Origin: Candidatus Peribacteria bacterium
Lineage (GTDB): Bacteria > Patescibacteriota > Gracilibacteria > UBA1369 > UBA12463
Assembly: GCA_943355055.1 (NCBI GenBank)
Contig: CALREA010000005.1
Coordinates: forward strand, 1-46,584
DNA length: 46,584 nt
Reading direction: 5' to 3'
How positions within the stretch are numbered: position 1 is the first letter of the stretch; each line of letters opens with the position of its first letter. The position numbers and the translations under genes are program-made. Below are positions 3,177-46,584 of this stretch, piece by piece. The notes beneath the pieces were generated by a model. The model did not search any database and was not told where the DNA came from. It saw only the letters and a list, made by a program, of their open reading frames with translations.

Positions 3177-3995
3177 TTATGTATCAAGTTTCTTTATTGT
3201 TCTTTCGGGAATAATTATTGTCTTCCCGGTTTCCTTCTCAATAGCCTTCCGAGTATTGCCCGCAATAGTGCCGCCTTGTCTTGCCACTGATTTATTTTGA
3301 GGAAATGTTTTTGGTTTTTTAATTTTTGAAATTTCAGTTGTTGTGGCCTCGGCCAGCATATTGAGAACTAGCTCCAAATTCGTCATATTATCACGGAGGC
3401 TTTCTTTTTTGAGATTTTTGTAATCCTTGTATTCGCGAACGGTCTTGCCTGCCCACGCCTTGGTAATCTCATCTGTCAAAATGGCATATTCCAGACCTTC
3501 CTTCACGCCTCTCGTCTGCCATTCATCCGTCAGATCTTTTCTCACCTCAATAGTCTTTAGACGCTGGTTAATCCATTCTTTTGGATATTCTTTCTGCTCA
3601 TACATCCTCATCGCACGATCGATACTTAGCTCGGGATCTTCCATTTCCTCAATTCGCTCATAACCAACGCTGGCAAGCCATACCTTGAGAGGTTCCGCTT
3701 TTGGAGAAGGAACTGACTGAATAAGACGTAATATGTTTTCGGTTGTTAAACAATCGGTGGCATATTTTTTGCCATCTGAAGCTAATAATTTCAGTTGGTG
3801 ACATTTTGTCACCACCTCACTACCCTCATCCGCTAGACGCTCTTTGAGCTTATTCCAATATTTTCTCGGATCTACACTATCTGTTAGAATTCCAATTACA
3901 TCCACAACCGAAAAATACCAAAGCTCTCCTGCCGCATCCCAATGCCGGCGAACATGCTTTTGATTAAACAATATAATCGAACGATCTTTATCCAT
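3177..3995 (-). CDS. BRO-N domain protein (DinD/antirepressor-like)
   Basis: 272-residue protein of the BRO-N family, related to phage antirepressors and DNA-damage-inducible protein D. The N-terminal BRO-N part has RRHWDAAGELWYFSVVDVIG followed by the SVDPRKYWNKLKERL segment, and the middle part has LASVGYERIEEMEDPELS. The C-terminal third (about residues 130-272) is a conserved extension with ELVLNMLAEATTTEI and a basic end. Family members bind DNA or modulate phage and host regulators; the target here is unknown. It starts with ATG at 3995. A TATGCT hexamer sits exactly 6 nt upstream (4002-4007), but without a convincing -35. It is probably the first gene of a short unit with the hypothetical below. 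Confidence 0.82.
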   Translation of the reverse strand: MDKDRSIILFNQKHVRRHWDAAGELWYFSVVDVIGILTDSVDPRKYWNKLKERLADEGSEVVTKCHQLKLLASDGKKYATDCLTTENILRLIQSVPSPKAEPLKVWLASVGYERIEEMEDPELSIDRAMRMYEQKEYPKEWINQRLKTIEVRKDLTDEWQTRGVKEGLEYAILTDEITKAWAGKTVREYKDYKNLKKESLRDNMTNLELVLNMLAEATTTEISKIKKPKTFPQNKSVARQGGTIAGNTRKAIEKETGKTIIIPERTIKKLDT

Positions 3996-4042
3996 ATCGG
4001 AAGCATAGCGAGAAAAAATGTACTATACTAGATTAAATGGAT

Positions 4043-7651: not shown

Positions 7652-7658
7652 GGGTTTA

Positions 7659-7687
7659 TTGTGCTTTTAGCTTTATTATGGTATAAT
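7659..7687 (+). promoter_or_regulatory. Leaderless-type promoter for the transporter-HEAT gene
   Basis: TTGTGC (7659-7664), 17-nt spacer, TATAAT (7682-7687) preceded by TG plus one base (extended -10), then exactly 6 nt to the ATG at 7694. Transcription would be expected to start at or next to the A of the start codon. Confidence 0.75.
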
Positions 7688-7693
7688 GGTTTA

Positions 7694-10183
7694 ATGGATA
7701 AAACACAAACACAAAACGTAGTGCTTGAGCGTTCGTGGCTCTATAGGCTCATCCGACTTCATCCGAACGAGGTGAGTCGAACCTTCATGGTCTGGATTAT
7801 TCGATTATTATACCGTTTTGTATTCGTGGTGAGCTGGACCTTGATCGTCGCCCACGTGGCGAGTACCTATCACAGCGAAATTGCTTTGCCGGTGCTGTTC
7901 TTGATTCATGCATTTCTTGTATTGCTCGGCAGCGTACTTTCATTTTTCCTCTTTACCCGGCTTCCTCTTGAGAATATTTTCCTCTATTCATTGATTGCCG
8001 GAGTTTCTGTTCTCTTCGGTTGTCAGCTTTTTGTCTTTGATGAGACGATTAAAATCGGCATTCTTCTTTTCGTAGAGTCGTTTATTCTCGTTCAACTTTC
8101 TATCAATATTGAGACATTTACGGAGCGATTTTTTACGCCATTCGAAAGTGCTCGTACGTTTCCTATTGCTGAGTCCGGCGACACTATTGCGACGTTGCTG
8201 GCAGGTGCCTTCCTCTACTTCAATGCTTCTCAACTTACCATGACCCGTGTTTTGTGGGTTGTAGTAGCGGTTCTTTCACTTATGATTCCGTTCTTTCTTC
8301 ATTATCATTCTTTTTTGCGTTCGAATCCCGGACTGTGTTTATTCCGAAAGCAGTTCATTGGCGGGGAGCATGAGGAGTTCCAACCGTCGTATGTAGCAAA
8401 AATTATTGCTCGTCATCCTTACATCGTTACGCTGATTGGAGTGGTTTTGGCACAGTGGTTTTTCTCGGTGGTGCTGGAGTATCTCTTCACCTATTCTGTC
8501 TCAATGCAATATGTCGGTGAACATGCCGAACTGATTCCTGCGACTGCCGGGGCGGTTGAAAATTTGCTGATTGAGGAGTTTGGCGCATTGCAAATTTTGT
8601 TTGCTTCTGCTGCCCTTGTCTCGCATTTTTTCTTGGCGGGAAGATTTATTTCCACTCTTGGAGTCATAGGAAGTATTTTCCTTCATCCACTTGTGTCACT
8701 TCTGAGCTTAGCAGGAATGATTACCCATTTTGGACCACTCACCACCATTGTGGCACGCGCTAATTCTGAGGTTACAGGTGTAGTATATCGTAATTCCTAT
8801 CAGTCTACTTATTACGTGTTTGACGAGATGGAAAGTCAATATACTCGTATCTTTATGGATGGAATTATTCGTCCCCTGGGAGCGATGCTAGGTACGTCAT
8901 TTCTCGTTCTTTCCTACTTTTTCGTTCCCCACGGTTCTTATTTAACATTTGTCCTGACAGGACTTTTTGTCGTTCTCTTGTTTTTTGCTCTATCGGCGTT
9001 GACATTGCAGAAGCAATACAATCGATTAATAGTTCATCAGCTCAAGAAATCCGATACTCATCTTGACCAGAAGTTAAATTTGATTGATGTGCTTTCGCGA
9101 ACAGAATATGCGCAGAAGACGTTGCTATTTGATGGTATTTTCCACGATTCTCGTGAATCTCCATTGATTCAGGTGAAAATGATGGAAATTTTTGCCCGAG
9201 AATTAAGTCATTTTCCTGACATCATCCAGTGTTTACGTCATCCGGACCCTGCCGTTCGCTTTGCTAGCGTATCCGCGTTGCAGCAGTTTTTTGATGCCAA
9301 GTATTTTGAGATTAATTTGTTGTCTCATCGAACCGTGATTAGTGAGTTAATGTATTGTTCGGTTCATGAGACCGATCGAAAAATTAGACTGCTCATGCTT
9401 CTACTTTTGGCTCGCTTCAAAGAAAAAGAAGTTTTGGATTTCCTCCTGGAGCATCTTCAAAATGATCAGGGAGATTATCTCAGCACTATCATTATGGCGT
9501 GCGATGTGTTTGATGATCCCTCTTTCCATCCTCTGATAAAAGGCTTTTTGTCATCCAATGATCCGCGAGTATGGGCGCATGCAGCTCTTATTCTTTCTCG
9601 TTTTGATGAGTATCGTGATGCTGTTCGAACCTTACTTCATACAAAAATGAATGACCATTCACGTCCTACGAGAGTTGCCGTGGCTTTTGTTCTTGCGCAG
9701 ATGTTCGATGTTTCTTATACATCTTATTTTAGAGATCGTCTCGAAAAATCTGATGATATGTTGGAGAAGGTTTTTTTATCATTCGGATTGGTTTCTGTCG
9801 GTGAAGATACATCGATCACGATATTTTCCAATCATCTTTTTAATTTAGATGCAGGTAGTTTAGACGATACCTCCCGTTATCTGTCGTTGATACCGGGTTT
9901 TATGGATTTACTCCCTCCGACAAATCGATATGTGGTTGAGAGATATTTGCAGCAGCATGCCATTCATACGTTACATGCTCTCTTGCAAACGATTGAGCAT
10001 GGTTCTCTTGACCATTTGCAACTGTCAGAATTGAAGAAATTACGGAATATGTATGGTATCCTGAACGCGACCGAAGAAATATACAAGATTGATCTTGTTA
10101 TACGTTCTCATGATCCGTCATTTCGTCCTGAGTCTCGATTTTTCGGTAAGGTACCATTGCTACTTTCTTCTTACTTATCGTAA
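7694..10183 (+). CDS. Nucleotide-transporter-like membrane domain fused to HEAT-like repeats
   Basis: 829-residue fusion protein. Residues to about 435 hold some 11-12 hydrophobic helices with an MFS-like layout, most like the ATP/ADP (TLC/NTT) carrier family; the call rests on overall pattern, as no single signature is decisive. From about residue 455 to the end the protein is soluble and alpha-helical, with repeating helix pairs resembling HEAT repeats (HPDPAVRFASVSALQQF, SNDPRVWAHAALILSRF, HSRPTRVAVAFVLAQMF). TLC carriers with HEAT extensions are known from other bacteria. The ATG at 7694 is chosen because it sits 6 nt after a strong -10 box; the longer frame from 7661 would begin inside the promoter. 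The PP2C gene follows after 11 nt, suggesting a joint regulatory or transport unit. Confidence 0.72.
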   Translation: MDKTQTQNVVLERSWLYRLIRLHPNEVSRTFMVWIIRLLYRFVFVVSWTLIVAHVASTYHSEIALPVLFLIHAFLVLLGSVLSFFLFTRLPLENIFLYSLIAGVSVLFGCQLFVFDETIKIGILLFVESFILVQLSINIETFTERFFTPFESARTFPIAESGDTIATLLAGAFLYFNASQLTMTRVLWVVVAVLSLMIPFFLHYHSFLRSNPGLCLFRKQFIGGEHEEFQPSYVAKIIARHPYIVTLIGVVLAQWFFSVVLEYLFTYSVSMQYVGEHAELIPATAGAVENLLIEEFGALQILFASAALVSHFFLAGRFISTLGVIGSIFLHPLVSLLSLAGMITHFGPLTTIVARANSEVTGVVYRNSYQSTYYVFDEMESQYTRIFMDGIIRPLGAMLGTSFLVLSYFFVPHGSYLTFVLTGLFVVLLFFALSALTLQKQYNRLIVHQLKKSDTHLDQKLNLIDVLSRTEYAQKTLLFDGIFHDSRESPLIQVKMMEIFARELSHFPDIIQCLRHPDPAVRFASVSALQQFFDAKYFEINLLSHRTVISELMYCSVHETDRKIRLLMLLLLARFKEKEVLDFLLEHLQNDQGDYLSTIIMACDVFDDPSFHPLIKGFLSSNDPRVWAHAALILSRFDEYRDAVRTLLHTKMNDHSRPTRVAVAFVLAQMFDVSYTSYFRDRLEKSDDMLEKVFLSFGLVSVGEDTSITIFSNHLFNLDAGSLDDTSRYLSLIPGFMDLLPPTNRYVVERYLQQHAIHTLHALLQTIEHGSLDHLQLSELKKLRNMYGILNATEEIYKIDLVIRSHDPSFRPESRFFGKVPLLLSSYLS

Positions 10184-10194
10184 TATTCATTTGT

Positions 10195-11292
10195 ATGAAT
10201 TTTCTCCGACGTAGTTTTACCGTTAAAATCTTATCTATCCTCCTGGGCATAGTCGTTGTATTGTCAGCGACACTGTATATCTTTGGAAGATACTACGGCT
10301 TGTCTTTTGTTCCTTTGGAGTTTGTTTATTACGGATTAATTGCTTTATTCATATTAGTGGCTTTTGTGTTTTGGTACAGTGTTTCCAGACCTTTGAAGGG
10401 TATTATCATGCAGATGCAAGCACTTCTTACCGGAAGAGAGTATAAGAAATTCTTCACGGATCGCGTAGATGAAGTTGGAATTATGGCGCATTTTTTCAAT
10501 GAAATTACCAGAAGTATGAATCGTTTTTCTGGTGATATCGCCGAGGGCAAAAGAATGGCGGGTGATTTGAAAATTGCGAGTGGTTTACAACATGATATTC
10601 TCCCGAGAACAGCGCCACAGATTCCCGGGTTGGTTGTTGCTATCAAGTCTCAGTCGGCCGCCGAGGTTGGAGGTGATAGTTTCGGTTTCATTCCTGTGAA
10701 GGATGCCCATTATTTGTATATTGGCGATGCGGCTGGTGACAGTGTCGCCGCGGGAATTTTGATGACTATTGTTAGCACTCTTGTTTCTGCGTATAGCGAG
10801 ATTGCTCAATCTCTCAAGGAAATGGTCTATCACATAAATCGACAGCTCAAGTTACGCATTCATTCCACGCTCTATATGACCATGACCCTCTTGAAGTGGA
10901 ATCCTCTAGGAAAAAATATGACGTTTGTCGGAGCGGGTCATGAATTTATCCTGACGTATAGTATGAAAACCGGACGTTGTGAGGCGACACCTTCCGGGGG
11001 TATTGCGTTGGGGATGGTTCCTGATAATTCAACGTTGATCAAGGAGCAGACACTTATTTTTGAGAATAGGGATATTATCATTCTTTATACCGATGGGGTG
11101 ATCAGATCCAAAAATACGTCCGGTGAGGAGTTCGGTCTCAAGCGGCTCGAGGAGGCTATTGCCAAGTATGCTTCACAATATGGACCGGTTCCGACACTTG
11201 ATAAAATCATGGCTGATATTAGCTCATTTATGGCTAGTACTAGTCAGCTGGATGATATGACGCTGATAGCGATTCAGAGGGTTGATGCCTAA
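10195..11292 (+). CDS. Membrane HAMP-PP2C (SpoIIE/RsbU-type) phosphatase
   Basis: 365 residues. Two transmembrane helices (about 8-28 and 40-62) are followed by a HAMP-like linker (SVSRPLKGIIMQMQALLTG, DEVGIMAHFFNEI) and a SpoIIE-type PP2C serine phosphatase domain (about 122-362). The metal-binding acidic motifs are present: GGDSFGF, GDAAGDSVAAGILM, ILYTDGV and SQLDDMTLI. Such enzymes dephosphorylate anti-anti-sigma factors or other partners in response to membrane signals; no partner is encoded nearby. There is little outside the membrane between the helices, so the signal may be sensed in the membrane or through the transporter-HEAT protein encoded 11 nt upstream. Confidence 0.88.
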   Translation: MNFLRRSFTVKILSILLGIVVVLSATLYIFGRYYGLSFVPLEFVYYGLIALFILVAFVFWYSVSRPLKGIIMQMQALLTGREYKKFFTDRVDEVGIMAHFFNEITRSMNRFSGDIAEGKRMAGDLKIASGLQHDILPRTAPQIPGLVVAIKSQSAAEVGGDSFGFIPVKDAHYLYIGDAAGDSVAAGILMTIVSTLVSAYSEIAQSLKEMVYHINRQLKLRIHSTLYMTMTLLKWNPLGKNMTFVGAGHEFILTYSMKTGRCEATPSGGIALGMVPDNSTLIKEQTLIFENRDIIILYTDGVIRSKNTSGEEFGLKRLEEAIAKYASQYGPVPTLDKIMADISSFMASTSQLDDMTLIAIQRVDA

Positions 11293-11310
11293 AGCTCTTT
11301 GCTGTAGGAT
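11282..11310 (+). promoter_or_regulatory. Leaderless-type promoter for queA
   Basis: TTGATG (11282-11287), 17-nt spacer, TAGGAT (11305-11310), then 6 nt to the queA ATG at 11317. The -35 lies inside the 3' end of the phosphatase gene. The geometry is identical to the promoter at 7659. Confidence 0.6.
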
Positions 11311-11316
11311 TTCGCC

Positions 11317-12342
11317 ATGAATTTGAGTGATTTTGATTATGTGCTGCCCCGTGAGCTGATTGCTCAAGTGCCTCTCGAGCCAAGAGATATGTCACGTATG
11401 ATGGTGCTGGATCGTGCGAGCGGGACGTTATCACACCATCATTTTTCCGATCTCCCGAAGTTTTTGACAATGAATGATGTGTTGGTTTTTAACCAGTCAA
11501 AGGTAATTCCGGCTCGTATTACGTTTGTATTTGAGGGAAAAGAGTGTGAATTATTTTTTTTACGCGTGTCCGATGAAAATGAATGGGAAGTGATGGTTCG
11601 ACCCGGGAAACTTTTTCGTGAGAGTTGTAAGGTAGCGATTAATAATGAAGTATCCGTGGAGGTTTTGCGCGTGATGTCGGAGGCGGAACATGGTCATCGA
11701 ATTGTGAGGGTGAGCGATGTGCTGAAGCGCGATACGTTCGATCTCCTGGATGATATCGGTACGATTCCCCTTCCGCCGTATATTGAGACTCAGGAGGGCG
11801 CAGGTCAGTATCAGACGGTATATGCGTCCGTTCCCGGAAGTGTAGCCGCGCCTACGGCGGGTTTTCATTTTACGCAGCGATTGCTGGATGAGATTACTGC
11901 CATGGGGGTTAAGTGTGAATATGTAACGCTCCACGTAGGCGCGGGTACGTTCCTCCCTGTTATGGTTGAGAAAATTACTGATCACGTGATGCATCATGAG
12001 TATTACTCGATTGAGCCTGAGGTTGTGGCTCGACTCATCGAGGCGAAAAAGAATGGAAAGAGAATTATCGCGGTTGGGACGACGGCGTGTAGGGCGCTGG
12101 AGAGTTGTTTCAGGGATTTTGAGAATCCACTTTTGGAGAGTTCAACTAATTTGTTTATCTACCCAGGGTATGAGTTTACCTTTATTGATAGTTTGATTAC
12201 GAATTTTCATCTACCGAAGAGTACGTTACTCATGTTGGTTTCTACGTTAGCCGGTCAGGATGTTATAAAAAAAGCGTATCAGGCAGCGGTTTGTGAAAAA
12301 TACCGATTTTTTAGTTTCGGAGATGGGATGTTTATCATGTAA
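11317..12342 (+). CDS. queA: QueA, S-adenosylmethionine:tRNA ribosyltransferase-isomerase
   Basis: 341 residues of normal length. QueA transfers and isomerises the ribose of SAM to preQ1 at tRNA position 34, making epoxyqueuosine. Recognised from the start DFDYVLPRELIAQVPLEPRD, the block VLVFNQSKVIPARI, the central PTAGFHFTQRLLDEI with LHVGAGTFLPV, and the C-terminal NFHLPKSTLLMLVSTLAG. It lies 24 nt downstream of the phosphatase gene but has its own promoter-like sequence. No other queuosine gene is visible in the window. Confidence 0.97.
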   Translation: MNLSDFDYVLPRELIAQVPLEPRDMSRMMVLDRASGTLSHHHFSDLPKFLTMNDVLVFNQSKVIPARITFVFEGKECELFFLRVSDENEWEVMVRPGKLFRESCKVAINNEVSVEVLRVMSEAEHGHRIVRVSDVLKRDTFDLLDDIGTIPLPPYIETQEGAGQYQTVYASVPGSVAAPTAGFHFTQRLLDEITAMGVKCEYVTLHVGAGTFLPVMVEKITDHVMHHEYYSIEPEVVARLIEAKKNGKRIIAVGTTACRALESCFRDFENPLLESSTNLFIYPGYEFTFIDSLITNFHLPKSTLLMLVSTLAGQDVIKKAYQAAVCEKYRFFSFGDGMFIM

Positions 12343-14747: not shown

Positions 14748-14753
14748 TAGAAT
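14748..14753 (+). promoter_or_regulatory. Extended -10 box for the YggT gene
   Basis: TAGAAT preceded by TG plus one base, 9 nt before the ATG at 14763, so the leader would be only 2-3 nt. The -35 is weak (TAGACC at 14726). Confidence 0.45.
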
Positions 14754-14762
14754 GGGTAAAGT

Positions 14763-15059
14763 ATGGCTCTTATTGGAATTATTGCTATGTTTGTGTTCTT
14801 CCTCCAACGTCTTCTGGACGTTTTACTTTTTGTTGTTTTCGCGAGGGTGATTTTTTCTTGGTTTCCCATGCATAATATTCAACAAAGCCGTATTTATAGT
14901 TTTCTTCATGACGTGACAGAGCCTATGTTTCAATTAGTACAAAAACTTCCTCATCGATTTGGCATGATGGATATTTCCGCTATTTATGTTTTTGTTTTGA
15001 TTGATGTTGTCCGATGGGTTTTGAGTGTTGTTGCCGCTTCTTTTATATCATCATTGTAG
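14763..15059 (+). CDS. YggT family membrane protein
   Basis: 98-residue membrane protein with two main hydrophobic segments, matching YggT: an N-terminal helix, then VIFSWFPMHNIQQSRIYSFLHDVTEPMFQLVQKLPHRF split by the conserved FLxxxTEPxxxxxR-type region, then DISAIYVFVLIDVVRWVL. YggT proteins are linked to cell division and osmotic behaviour in other bacteria; the biochemical role is not settled. It ends 8 nt before the cysS start, so the two are probably cotranscribed. Confidence 0.85.
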   Translation: MALIGIIAMFVFFLQRLLDVLLFVVFARVIFSWFPMHNIQQSRIYSFLHDVTEPMFQLVQKLPHRFGMMDISAIYVFVLIDVVRWVLSVVAASFISSL

Positions 15060-17884: not shown

Positions 17885-17913
17885 AGATTACTTTGTTTGT
17901 CCCAACCTGACAA
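17885..17913 (-). promoter_or_regulatory. Near-leaderless promoter for murC
   Basis: Minus strand: TTGTCA (17908-17913), 17-nt spacer, TAATCT (17885-17890), then 8 nt to the murC ATG (17876). The predicted transcript starts within about 2 nt of the ATG. Confidence 0.6.
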
Positions 17914-17925
17914 GTATGCTATATA
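17897..17925 (+). promoter_or_regulatory. Leaderless-type promoter for the FtsB-like gene
   Basis: TTGTCC (17897-17902), 17-nt spacer ending in TG plus one base, TATATA (17920-17925), then 6 nt to the ATG at 17932. It overlaps the divergent murC promoter, so the two would compete for polymerase. Confidence 0.65.
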
Positions 17926-17931
17926 GATAGC

Positions 17932-18369
17932 ATGAAATTCGAGTTTCATCATGCCTCGAGAATGACGAAAATGGTACTCATTGGTGAGTTCCTCCTTGTT
18001 TCGTATCTGCTGTATGCGCTTACAACGCATATTTATAATAATTACCAAATTGATTATCACATCAATAATTTCCGCGCGATGAATGATAAAATCACCCTGG
18101 ATAACCGAAAAGCGGCTGAGGATTTGGTGTATTACAAATCAGATCAATTCATTGAAAAAATGGCGAAACAAAATTTTAATCTCGTGAATCAGGGGGAAGA
18201 AGTGATCGTGGTTTCGGATGATTTACTGCAGACGCCTGTCGCTGAGTCGAGTGTTCCTGAAAATACGGATCAGATTTCGAAGTACTATTCTCTTTCGAAT
18301 CCCCAAAAATGGTGGAAGTTTTTCTTCGAGATTGATCATACCGTGAAAGCTGTTAAGCCCGCGAACTAG
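17932..18369 (+). CDS. FtsB/DivIC-like septum formation initiator
   Basis: 145-residue bitopic membrane protein. A short basic cytoplasmic N-terminus is followed by one transmembrane helix (about residues 14-36, VLIGEFLLVSYLLYALTTHI), then a helical, coiled-coil-prone stretch (about 40-75). The FtsB/DivIC signature follows: YYKSDQFIEKMAKQNFNLVN then QGEEVIVV (compare the family pattern YIExxAR...GxVxxGE). These proteins join FtsL and FtsQ in the divisome. The C-terminal tail of about 40 residues is unlike the usual family. It sits divergently from murC, a dcw-type neighbour, which supports the call. Confidence 0.7.
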   Translation: MKFEFHHASRMTKMVLIGEFLLVSYLLYALTTHIYNNYQIDYHINNFRAMNDKITLDNRKAAEDLVYYKSDQFIEKMAKQNFNLVNQGEEVIVVSDDLLQTPVAESSVPENTDQISKYYSLSNPQKWWKFFFEIDHTVKAVKPAN

Positions 18370-24608: not shown

Positions 24609-25748
24609 TCAAAGAGTCACCTGTATGGGTGGCTCTTTTGAGAAAAATGAAAACAGGTAACATTTTATTCCGCCGTTGAACAACTTTCGATTCTTGTCAG
24701 CAGGACGACCAAAGAGCTGGGGGAAGTTTTCAACAGGAGTGATGATGAAGAGTGAACAGTTTTTTGCTTGTGTAAATTCTTTTCCAAATTCGCGATACAT
24801 TTTTTCAACAGATGGCTTGTCTTCCAGTCGTTCGCCGTATGGAGGGTTGCAAATAAAGGTGGCGTTTTCGAACTTAGTAAAGTCGAGATCGTGAAAGTCT
24901 GTACATTGGAAATTAATATTTCTGAAACCTGCGTTTCCGGCGTTTCCACCTGCTGTTCGAAGTATTCCCGCATCGATATCAAAGCCATATATTCGAAGTT
25001 TTACGTCTGATTTTTCCGCTTCTTGAATTTCAGTATGATTTTTTTCGAATTGTTTTTTATCCATCCATGGCCATTTTTCGAAGGCGAACGTTCGGTTGAG
25101 GCCGGGCGCTTTGTTTTGCGCTGCGAGTGCCGCCTCGATGAGGATTGTTCCGCTTCCGCAGAATGGGTCGACTAGCGTGCGGTCCGGAGTCCAATCAGAG
25201 AGTTTTACCATGGCTGCAGCGAGCGTCTCCTTCATCGGTGCATCGTTGGTCTTGGTGCGGTAGCCACGTTTATGGAGGCTATCTCCAGAGGAATCAATTG
25301 TTATTACGAATTGATCTTTGTTTGACTTCACCATGATCTGGTAGGTGACCCCTGAATTTTCCGAGAGAATCTCGCTTTTATGTTTTAATTGGAGCCTCTT
25401 TACTACTGATTTTTTTACAATACTCTGAATCGCCGGCTCGGAGTGGAGTATGGATTTCACGCTTGTAGCGTCCACGGGGAAGGCGTCGCTTTTGCCAATA
25501 TATTTCTCCCAGGGAAGTACGCCTACCATATCGAAGAGTTCATCAAATGTCGTTGCCTGGAACTCCCCCATTTTTATCTGAATTCGGTCGGCGCAGCGAA
25601 GCCAAAGATTTGTCTTCATCAAAGCTGTCTCATCACCCTCGAATGTAATTCTTCCGTCCTCGGTTTTTAGAACAGGCAGACCAAGTTTCTTTAGCTCATC
25701 CTGTACGAGCTTTTCCAGTCCAAAGGCGCATGTAGCAATCAATTCCAT
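24609..25748 (-). CDS. ypsC: THUMP-domain RNA N2-guanine methyltransferase (YpsC/RlmL-type)
   Basis: 379 residues, the length of YpsC-type enzymes. The N-terminal ferredoxin-like and THUMP region (about 1-165) begins LIATCAFGLEKLVQDELKKL. The Rossmann-fold methyltransferase has SAM motif DPFCGSGTILIEAAL and catalytic NPPYGERL. Family members methylate N2 of guanine in 23S rRNA; the exact target here is inferred. It starts with ATG at 25748; a TACAGT hexamer lies 6 nt upstream (25755-25760). It ends with TGA inside the bidirectional terminator shared with the secreted-protein gene. Confidence 0.9.
   Translation of the reverse strand: MELIATCAFGLEKLVQDELKKLGLPVLKTEDGRITFEGDETALMKTNLWLRCADRIQIKMGEFQATTFDELFDMVGVLPWEKYIGKSDAFPVDATSVKSILHSEPAIQSIVKKSVVKRLQLKHKSEILSENSGVTYQIMVKSNKDQFVITIDSSGDSLHKRGYRTKTNDAPMKETLAAAMVKLSDWTPDRTLVDPFCGSGTILIEAALAAQNKAPGLNRTFAFEKWPWMDKKQFEKNHTEIQEAEKSDVKLRIYGFDIDAGILRTAGGNAGNAGFRNINFQCTDFHDLDFTKFENATFICNPPYGERLEDKPSVEKMYREFGKEFTQAKNCSLFIITPVENFPQLFGRPADKNRKLFNGGIKCYLFSFFSKEPPIQVTL
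24611..24639. terminator. Bidirectional intrinsic terminator
   Basis: Stem AAAGAGTCACC / GGTGGCTCTTT (11 bp with one G-U), 6-nt loop, followed by T on the plus strand. It lies between the convergent secreted-protein and methyltransferase genes and overlaps the latter's stop codon. Confidence 0.75.
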
Positions 25749-25877
25749 GGGTGTACTGTACCGTATCTATCGATTTTTGAATAGGTGCTCATTAATGATA
25801 ATCATATGGTTTAGAATCTCTGTACTATCGAGAACGATTTTTATCTCATACCTGTTTGATAGTTGCCATATACGTTA

Positions 25878-29407: not shown

Positions 29408-29866
29408 TTATACGTTAGATAGAGTATGATTTCTTTCAAGGGTGAATGTTGCGGGACCGTCGTTTTCGAGCGAGACGATCATGTGGGCGCCGAACTCGCC
29501 GGTTTGGATGTTGAGGCCTTTGTCCCGAAGGAGCTGTACTGTTTTCTCGTAAAGAGGTTTTGAGTGGTCGGGTCGTGAGGCGTTGGCAAAGTCTGGGCGT
29601 CGCCCTTTGTCGCAAGACCCATAGAGTGTGAACTGAGATACGATGAGGATTTCTAATTTGGTATCGAGGACGGAGAGGTCGAATTCTTGCTCTCCTTGCG
29701 GAAAAAGCCGGAGGTTTGTGATTTTCTCTACCATCCACTTCGCTTCCTCCTCGGTGTCGGTCTGGGTGATTCCGAGGAGTACGAAGAGACCTTTTTGGAT
29801 AGTGCCGATTGCCTGGGCGCCGACGGTTACGGAGGCGCTGTTTACTCGTTGAATAATAGCTTTCAT
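29408..29866 (-). CDS. dtd: D-aminoacyl-tRNA deacylase
   Basis: 152 residues, the usual DTD length. It hydrolyses D-aminoacyl-tRNAs and Gly-tRNA-Ala in the cytoplasm. The start MKAIIQRVNSASVTVGAQ, the SQFTLYG motif and the cis-proline motif NDGPATFTLE are all present. Unlike many genes here it has a plausible Shine-Dalgarno (AGGAAG, 4 nt before the ATG) and a leader of about 20 nt. It is first in an operon with glyQS. Confidence 0.96.
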   Translation of the reverse strand: MKAIIQRVNSASVTVGAQAIGTIQKGLFVLLGITQTDTEEEAKWMVEKITNLRLFPQGEQEFDLSVLDTKLEILIVSQFTLYGSCDKGRRPDFANASRPDHSKPLYEKTVQLLRDKGLNIQTGEFGAHMIVSLENDGPATFTLERNHTLSNV

Positions 29867-35778: not shown

Positions 35779-36249
35779 ATGGCAGAGAATAAACCATTAT
35801 TCAGTATCGCCCCTCATCAAAGTCCGCAGGCTGAATCTAGGCCTACAGCTTCCACTGATCTATCTCCTGATTTAAATGGAGATGTTACGGCGAGTTTGCG
35901 TGAAGTCATCGGATCGCTTCCTGCTGAGCAAAAAGCTGGTGCATCCGCAGCGCAGGCCCAGCAAAAAGTTGTCAAAACCCCACAAGAACGAAAAGAAGAA
36001 TTGCTGGCTCGACTTCCTAAGGATCCAGAAAAGGCTGAGCGTTTTTTGAGACATGATATTGAGAAAAATTTAGAAAAGACTTTAGGAGAGCTGGAGCATC
36101 AGCTCCACAGTAATCCTTCATTCTTTGAAATGAACAGTCTTCTGTCTAGAATACGTGAGTTTCGTGAGGTTTTGGCACAACTGGCCTCCTATGCATTTGA
36201 GCAATTGAAGGTTTTGTGGCTTCGGTTTGTGCATAATCTTTCCATATAG
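35779..36249 (+). CDS. Hypothetical charged helical protein
   Basis: 156 residues, no recognised family. The N-terminal 60 residues are Pro/Ser/Ala-rich and probably disordered. The rest is predicted helical, with KTPQERKEELLARLPKDPEK and a charged amphipathic stretch (IEKNLEKTLGELEHQLHSNP), ending with an aromatic helix (YAFEQLKVLWLRFVHNL). The ATG at 35779 is preferred to the TTG at 35749 because the latter lies at the predicted transcription start. nadA follows 12 nt later but has its own leaderless-type promoter inside this gene's end. Confidence 0.65.
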   Translation: MAENKPLFSIAPHQSPQAESRPTASTDLSPDLNGDVTASLREVIGSLPAEQKAGASAAQAQQKVVKTPQERKEELLARLPKDPEKAERFLRHDIEKNLEKTLGELEHQLHSNPSFFEMNSLLSRIREFREVLAQLASYAFEQLKVLWLRFVHNLSI

Positions 36250-36255
36250 TAGAAT
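36227..36255 (+). promoter_or_regulatory. Leaderless-type promoter for nadA
   Basis: TTGTGC (36227-36232), 17-nt spacer, TAGAAT (36250-36255), then 6 nt to the GTG start at 36262. Same -35 hexamer, spacer and start distance as at 7659. Confidence 0.7.
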
Positions 36256-36261
36256 CCGGGT

Positions 36262-37242
36262 GTGACGACCCTAACTACCCATCAACTTGAGCTTGTTGAG
36301 AAGATTCGCGACTTGAAAGCTGCGAAGAATGCCCTTGTTCTTGTTCATAATTATTTGCGGCCGGAGGTGTATGAAGTTGCGGATTACATTGGCGACTCTT
36401 TGGGTTTATGTGAAAAGGCGGCTGAGACTGATGCGGATATAGTCGTATTTTCTGCGGTGCACTTCATGGCTGAGAGTGCGGCGCTCCTCCTTCCTTCGAA
36501 AAAGGTGTTGTTACCCGATTATGACGCTGGATGTGCATTGTCTGACATGATTACTGCAGAGCAATTGCGTGAGTTCCGTGCGCAGTATCCCAAGGCCGGA
36601 GTTGTGTGCTATATTAATTCTACCGCCGAGGTGAAGGCTGAATCTGATTCCGTGTGTACATCATCGAATGCGGTGGAGGTTACCCGGGCACTCCCCTATG
36701 ATCAGATATTGTTCGTTCCGGATAAAAACCTTGCGGCATTTGTGGCAAAGCAGGTTCCTGAAAAAGAAATTATCCCATGGGTAGGATACTGTCCTATTCA
36801 TCACCGAATTAGCGCCGAGCAGGTGATGCGGGCGAAGGCGGAACATCCGAATGCTAAGGTTATTGCCCATCCGGAGTGTCCTGAAGATGTACTGATGATT
36901 GCCGATGAAGTGGCGAGTACCTCGGGTATGATTTCTTATGCTGAAAAAAGTCCTGATACTGAGTTTATTGTTCTTACTGAGTGCGGATTGACGCAACGTA
37001 TGATCCGAGATATGCCCGGGAAAAAATTTATGTCCGTCTGTAATCTCTGTTATGATATGAAAAAAACGACATTGGATTCCGTCTATGAGGCTCTGATGCA
37101 TGAACAGTATGAAATCAAGATTCCCGAACCTGTCGCGATTCGTGCGCGCGAAAGTTTCCGAAAAATGTTTGCCCTAACCAGTGTGCCGATTTCCCTCCCC
37201 TCTCTCATTTCCCATACCTCCCTAACTTCTACCCATGGATAG
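36262..37242 (+). CDS. nadA: NadA, quinolinate synthase
   Basis: 326 residues. A [4Fe-4S] enzyme condensing iminoaspartate with dihydroxyacetone phosphate to quinolinate, for NAD synthesis. The start region VLVHNYLRPEVYEVADYIGD with DSLGLCEKAA, the block CYINSTAEVKAESD with VCTSSNAVEV, AHPECPEDV, and MSVCNLCYDMKKTTL provide the usual cluster cysteines. The start is GTG, 6 nt after a -10 box. It overlaps nadC by 8 nt. NadB (aspartate oxidase) is not in the window. Confidence 0.96.
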   Translation: MTTLTTHQLELVEKIRDLKAAKNALVLVHNYLRPEVYEVADYIGDSLGLCEKAAETDADIVVFSAVHFMAESAALLLPSKKVLLPDYDAGCALSDMITAEQLREFRAQYPKAGVVCYINSTAEVKAESDSVCTSSNAVEVTRALPYDQILFVPDKNLAAFVAKQVPEKEIIPWVGYCPIHHRISAEQVMRAKAEHPNAKVIAHPECPEDVLMIADEVASTSGMISYAEKSPDTEFIVLTECGLTQRMIRDMPGKKFMSVCNLCYDMKKTTLDSVYEALMHEQYEIKIPEPVAIRARESFRKMFALTSVPISLPSLISHTSLTSTHG

Positions 37243-46351: not shown

Positions 46352-46399
46352 TGTTTTTTTTAGCTGGCTCGGTAATCAACTCTCCCCTACAATACCCAC

Positions 46400-46584
46400 A
46401 TGATTATCGAGCAACATGAGCAGTTTACGCGGGCGATGCACTTGATGGAGGATACGCATCATAGTGTGTTTCTGACGGGCAAGGCGGGTACAGGAAAGTC
46501 GACGCTGCTCACGCATTTCATGGGGCGGACGGCGAAAAAGGTTGTTGTGCTGGCGCCGACGGGTGTGGCGGCGCTGAATGTGCA
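46400..46584 (+). CDS. PIF1-like helicase, 5' part (cut by window)
   Basis: First 61 residues of an AAA/helicase protein: P-loop FLTGKAGTGKSTLL (about 24-37) followed by VVVLAPTGVAALNV, which is motif Ia of PIF1/RecD-type SF1 helicases. Such proteins unwind DNA at forks, G-quadruplexes or R-loops. The 3' end is beyond the window. A TACAAT hexamer sits exactly 6 nt before the ATG (46388-46393), suggesting leaderless expression, though the -35 (TGGCTC) is weak. Confidence 0.78.
   Translation, partial: MIIEQHEQFTRAMHLMEDTHHSVFLTGKAGTGKSTLLTHFMGRTAKKVVVLAPTGVAALNV

Follow-up and report, generated by a model that had tools for sequence, protein, structure and literature searches.

The window analysed here is a stretch of 46,584 nucleotides, contig 5 of a Candidatus Peribacteria assembly of 1.14 Mb in 44 contigs (96% complete), and the genes at the sites named below were identified by profile searches against Pfam and NCBIfam. 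The quinolinate synthase gene nadA (36262..37242, forward strand; TIGR00550/NF006878 in NCBIfam, PF02445 in Pfam) begins with GTG and is followed by a gene for NadC, placed by profile search from 37235 onwards. Upstream of nadA, a -35 hexamer TTGTGC (36227..36232, forward strand) falls within the 3' end of the preceding gene, whose stop codon lies at 36249, and is followed by the -10 hexamer TAGAAT (36250..36255, forward strand) and six nucleotides leading to the GTG, an arrangement from which we infer a transcript start at G36262, where the GTG itself begins. The same arrangement precedes queA (11317..12342, forward strand; TIGR00113, PF02547), with -35 TTGATG at 11282-11287, -10 TAGGAT at 11305-11310 and six further nucleotides (11282..11316), and a HEAT-repeat protein gene with an ATG start (7694..10183, forward strand; PF13646), whose putatively leaderless mRNA would arise from TTGTGC-N17-TATAAT-N6 with an extended -10 element, TGG TATAAT (7659..7693, forward strand). 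The original prediction had assigned one geometry to these three genes, with 17-nt spacers and precisely six nucleotides separating the -10 hexamer from the start codon (7659-7696, 11282-11319 and 36227-36264, start codons included), and all three match the sequence exactly.

The HEAT-repeat gene is divergent from murJ on the minus strand, with an intergenic region of 42 bp between them (window 7652-7693). A minus-strand CACAAT-N6-ATG lies before murJ, so that murJ and the HEAT-repeat gene might both be leaderless through overlapping divergent promoters.

The remaining sites in the window are more variable. The fourth site named by the original prediction (17897-17934), TTGTCC-N17-TATATA-N6 at 17897..17931 on the forward strand before the ATG at 17932 of a DivIC-like gene (PF04977), has the right spacing but a defective hexamer, TATATA, in which the conserved final T is missing, and by coding score an ATG at 17962 is slightly favoured over that at 17932; it is a weak candidate, and single weak sites of this kind are uncertain. 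The looser cases, listed as 46388, 25755 and 4002 with six-nucleotide gaps and 14748 with nine, are all present as described. These are TACAAT-N6 at 46388..46399 (forward strand) before an ATG at 46400, whose open reading frame extends past the window end; TACAGT-N6 at 25749..25760 (minus strand) before the ATG of an RlmL-like methyltransferase gene (24609-25748, start at 25748; PF01170); TATGCT-N6 at 3996..4007 (minus strand) before the ATG of a Bro-N/DinD-like gene (3177-3995, start at 3995; PF02498); and TAGAAT-N9 at 14748..14762 (forward strand) before a YggT-family gene at 14763 (PF02325), for which a very short leader is predicted rather than a strictly leaderless mRNA.

Spacing of -10 hexamers across the genome

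Twenty further genome stretches were combined with the window into a sample of 443 kb and 340 genes, covering 39% of the genome. Gene calling relied on a simple Markov coding score; among candidate starts the choice was made from this score, with ATG given a slight constant advantage, and was therefore independent of any signal upstream. Translation table 11 fits this genome, as long frames are ended by TAA, TAG and TGA alike.

The recurrence of a -10 hexamer at a gap of exactly six nucleotides from the start, as originally predicted, was borne out across the sample, where 23 strict -10 hexamers fell at gap 6 and an average of 2.5 at each control gap (Poisson P = 6e-15). An enrichment over shuffled upstream sequences, the check proposed alongside that prediction, was strong and confined to spacing 6 in the 443-kb sample. 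A possible objection is that TANNNT is common in AT-rich upstream regions and that the fitting cases were simply picked out; hexamers of this form do occur at approximately 4% of genes at every spacing, and several of the looser cases, taken alone, are within chance. Within the window only, TANNNT at gap 6 was found in six of 31 called genes, the sample-wide background being approximately 12.6 of 340 per gap. However, 200 dinucleotide shuffles yielded a mean of 2.2 and a maximum of eight hexamers at gap 6 against the 23 observed, and the phase-matched, gap-shifted and reversed controls were all lower: across the whole genome, TANAAT-N6-ATG occurred 78 times against 17 for the reversed pattern, and TATAAT-N6-ATG 29 times against 14 for the codon-phase-matched TATAAT-N3-ATG. 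On the strength of these shuffles and controls, AT-richness was rejected as an explanation for the class, and coincidence of composition has a close to negligible probability.

A de novo motif search of the last 24 nt before starts recovered TAAAAT at gaps 6, 8 and 9 in this genome, while in G005, a genome from another genus of the same family, the motif drifted toward an A-rich pattern, for which reason the fractions obtained by EM were left out of the estimates of class size given below.

Promoter elements and base composition at gap 6

The hexamers near starts carry further features of promoters. A -35 element (at least four of six matches, with a 16-18 nt spacer) accompanied 17 of 40 hexamers (42%) at gaps 6-9, compared with 12% for hexamers located within genes (P = 3e-6), and the extended -10 motif TGn accompanied 35% compared with 7% (P = 1e-6); TGn was likewise enriched in G005 (P = 4e-11). 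Base composition was examined in a pool of 1152 genes from three genomes of the family, 126 of which formed the gap-6 group. Position -1 was a pyrimidine in 95% of these gap-6 genes, compared with a baseline of 73%, and specifically C in 56% compared with 27%; the G content of positions -6 to -1 was 16.4% compared with 8.9%; TGn was found in 36 of the 126 and a TTG start in none. Among the gaps, only gap 6 combined these marks at -1, in G content, in TGn and in start codon. In other genes G is strongly avoided just 5' of the start, and the relaxation of this avoidance in gap-6 genes would follow if these six positions belonged to the promoter and were never transcribed into mRNA. The relaxation was weaker in the same-genus genome G002 and absent in G126, a genome of the distant family f28 whose other leaders bear Shine-Dalgarno (SD) motifs and are not G-poor, and it is thus a supportive mark rather than a universal one. 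Separately, where no -10 hexamer lies near the start, leaders in both the sample and G005 are poor in G and tend to have a pyrimidine at -1, though these leaders are SD-free.

These features bear on two other readings of the hexamers. The first is that they are A/U-rich translational enhancers, such as S1 sites or Kozak-like A-rich stretches of the type seen in Bacteroidota, and not promoters; the leaders of the remaining genes are indeed A-rich and G-poor, and an S1-domain protein is present in the genome. However, enhancers would bring neither a -35 element at 16-18 nt nor TGn, would not relax the avoidance of G in the adjacent six bases and would not lock to a single-base spacing, and this reading is accordingly regarded as highly improbable. 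The second accepts the promoters as real but gives the transcripts leaders of 1-5 nt, making them near-leaderless rather than leaderless. A smaller excess of hexamers at gaps 7-10 in this genome (21 compared with 10 expected) is in keeping with it, as are the N9 case at 14748 and the N9 spacing before nadA in the sister genus described below, and individual genes could have leaders of 1-3 nt. Against it, the peak is sharp at 6, and only gap 6 combines a pyrimidine at -1 with a start codon beginning in a purine, which together leave near-leaderless transcripts an unlikely, though not far-fetched, explanation of the class.

The gap-6 hexamers are therefore best read, with high confidence, as belonging to ordinary housekeeping sigma70-type promoters that would yield leaderless mRNAs. 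Under this model, RNA polymerase would read a -35 element (approximately TTG...), a spacer of 16-18 nt, often an extended TGn, and a -10 element TANNNT, and would initiate 7 nt past the hexamer, at the initial A or G of the ATG or GTG, producing an mRNA whose 5' end is the AUG or GUG itself, with no leader. Ribosomes carrying initiator tRNA would then directly recognise the 5'-terminal start codon. Both the transcript 5' ends and initiation at a 5'-terminal codon are deduced here from the arrangement of signals in the DNA.

Counted above background, TANNNT at gap 6 precedes 9.5% of genes in the sample, against 6.6% for G005 and 5.4% for G002, and over gaps 6-9 the excess rises to 18%, 10% and 13%, respectively; as estimates from excess counts rather than lists of genes, these figures suggest a leaderless fraction of about 5-10% of genes, or about 10-18% if leaders of 0-3 nt are counted.

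Conservation and distribution within the phylum

The nadA promoter TTGTGC-N17-TAGAAT-N6-GTG was retained in the same-genus genomes G001 and G003, and in G002 it appeared with -35 TTGTAC and the -10 element as TATGAT-N6-GTG, while the sister genus g2 carried TACAAT-N9-ATG. The queA promoter, TAGGAT-N6-ATG, was also retained in G001 and G003, and three genomes of another genus (G005, G006 and G007) had TATAAT-N6-ATG in differing surroundings; among the relatives compared at queA, the promoter was absent in G002 and G004. Two relatives (L001 and L002) have the 42-bp region before the HEAT-repeat gene in nearly identical form. Assessed gene by gene, membership of the predicted leaderless class was not significantly conserved between genera (two of 10 kept, Fisher P = 0.37), while within the genus three of five were kept (P = 0.012), although from few cases.

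The spacing peak itself recurred more widely. At gap 6, 37 hexamers were found in G005 against 7.8 expected from background (P = 4e-14), 13 against 2.35 in G002 (P = 1e-6) and 19 against 1.4 in G126; no gap-6 peak was present among 108 genes of G014, from the same order. These results suggest a stable class with changing membership, in which individual genes seem to enter and leave while the class itself persists. Counts of TATAAT-N6-ATG and TATAAT-N3-ATG were made in 380 genomes of the phylum, and a tally by hand was taken over a chosen subset of 125 genomes comprising the order and class of the present genome and five large families. In this subset, gap 6 accounted for 3764 occurrences compared with 1110 at gap 3, and an excess at gap 6 was seen in 121 of the 125 genomes. 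Family f28 was extreme, with 1138 occurrences at gap 6 compared with 175 at gap 3 over 23 genomes.

The arrangement itself was described in 2011, in a survey of 953 genomes that defined bacterial leaderless genes by TANNNT located approximately 12 bp ahead of the start codon (Zheng et al. 2011, PMC3160421). The consensus is the same here, and a first T approximately 12 bp before the start is equivalent to a hexamer plus six nucleotides. The leading groups in that survey, Actinobacteria and Deinococcus-Thermus, had more than 20% leaderless genes, compared with the approximately 5-10% estimated at the exact spacing here, in a genome without SD. The survey predates most Patescibacteria genomes, and the term TM7 is absent from its text; no description of leaderless genes in this phylum was found in the open-access literature, subscription papers and preprints being outside the scope of the search. 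The present results thus extend a known geometry to a lineage that seems to be without an SD docking signal.

Absence of Shine-Dalgarno motifs and the 16S tail

The original prediction had also described the genes with gap-6 promoters as lacking an SD motif, and this holds well beyond them. SD 5-mers at the proper distance were found near the start in only three of the 340 genes in the sample, below the 10-11 found in far windows, and duplexes with the 16S tail at dG of -5 kcal/mol or lower numbered 12 near starts compared with 30-44 far from them. SD motifs are thus depleted before starts in this genome. The same method applied to G126 as a positive control gave 84 SD motifs near starts compared with four in far windows, showing that SD is detected where it is present. 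SD was likewise absent in G005, of the same family, and in G014 and G020, by which two other families of the order were covered. A variant SD complementary to the altered 16S tail of the genus (AAAAGAGG) was considered and rejected, as it showed no enrichment (eight near starts compared with 12-17 far).

The suggestion that two classes of mRNA may coexist is supported, as a second, broad hump of -10 hexamers at approximately 22-39 nt upstream of other starts apparently marks ordinary leadered promoters. The second class needs a different description, however, since leaders bearing an SD are very rare. The gene offered as an example of a normal leader, at 29866 on the minus strand of the window and taken as dtd, does have an SD-like AAGGAAG a few bases before its ATG, and in this it is one of very few such genes in the sample.

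The 16S rRNA gene is absent from the window's own assembly, and the tail was read in G001, G002 and G003 of the same genus (L032, L033 and L035), where it is GGAATACCTCTTTT, with ACCTCT in the DNA and CCUCU replacing CCUCC. G005, G007, G014 and G020 keep ACCTCC, and CCUCC is also kept in the sister genus g2 and in other families of the order. Among the 380 phylum genomes scanned, a draw that did not contain G001 and G003 and from which incomplete 16S genes would escape, the altered tail was found only in G002. Since SD is absent even where CCUCC is kept, its disuse appears to be wider, and by extension older, than the change in the anti-SD. A possible explanation, put forward tentatively and with slightly less than even confidence, is that much of the order dropped SD recognition and initiates only through leaderless mRNAs and G-poor, SD-free leaders, and that this loss preceded the erosion to CCUCU. 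As a minor observation, a divergent candidate for an S21-like ribosomal protein lies on contig C20 of this genome (C20:7659-7817), just under the Pfam cut-off.

An association of altered anti-SD sequences with a lack of SD has been described previously (PMC6107228). The accessible portions of a 2024 PLoS One article (PMC10783764) describe Candidatus Peribacter riflensis, which also belongs to the Peregrinibacteria, as SD-scarce, with approximately 7% of genes having SD, and as lacking CCUCC, with an altered 16S anti-SD; the close relatives of the present genome, labelled Peregrinibacteria/Peribacteria, carry ACCTCT. Those portions treat a single species of the lineage and report no promoter-based leaderless class for it, whereas here the absence of SD extends to G005, G014 and G020, all of which have ACCTCC. 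Bacteroidota share the general absence of SD, with SD-less initiation and a lowered GC content in the 5' leader (PMC3155529, accessible portions); they are a different phylum, and no leaderless promoter class is defined in those portions.

Annotation of starts in Patescibacteria (CPR) often leans on SD, whereas here SD is missing and the promoter signal marks many starts. Further, a single phylum contains both family f28, as in G126 with SD and putative leaderless genes together, and the SD-free order, providing a natural series for the loss of SD recognition. G126 combines strong SD usage with 124 occurrences of TATAAT-N6-ATG in a 0.7-Mb genome, and the counts in several other f28 genomes (L125-L135) resemble it.
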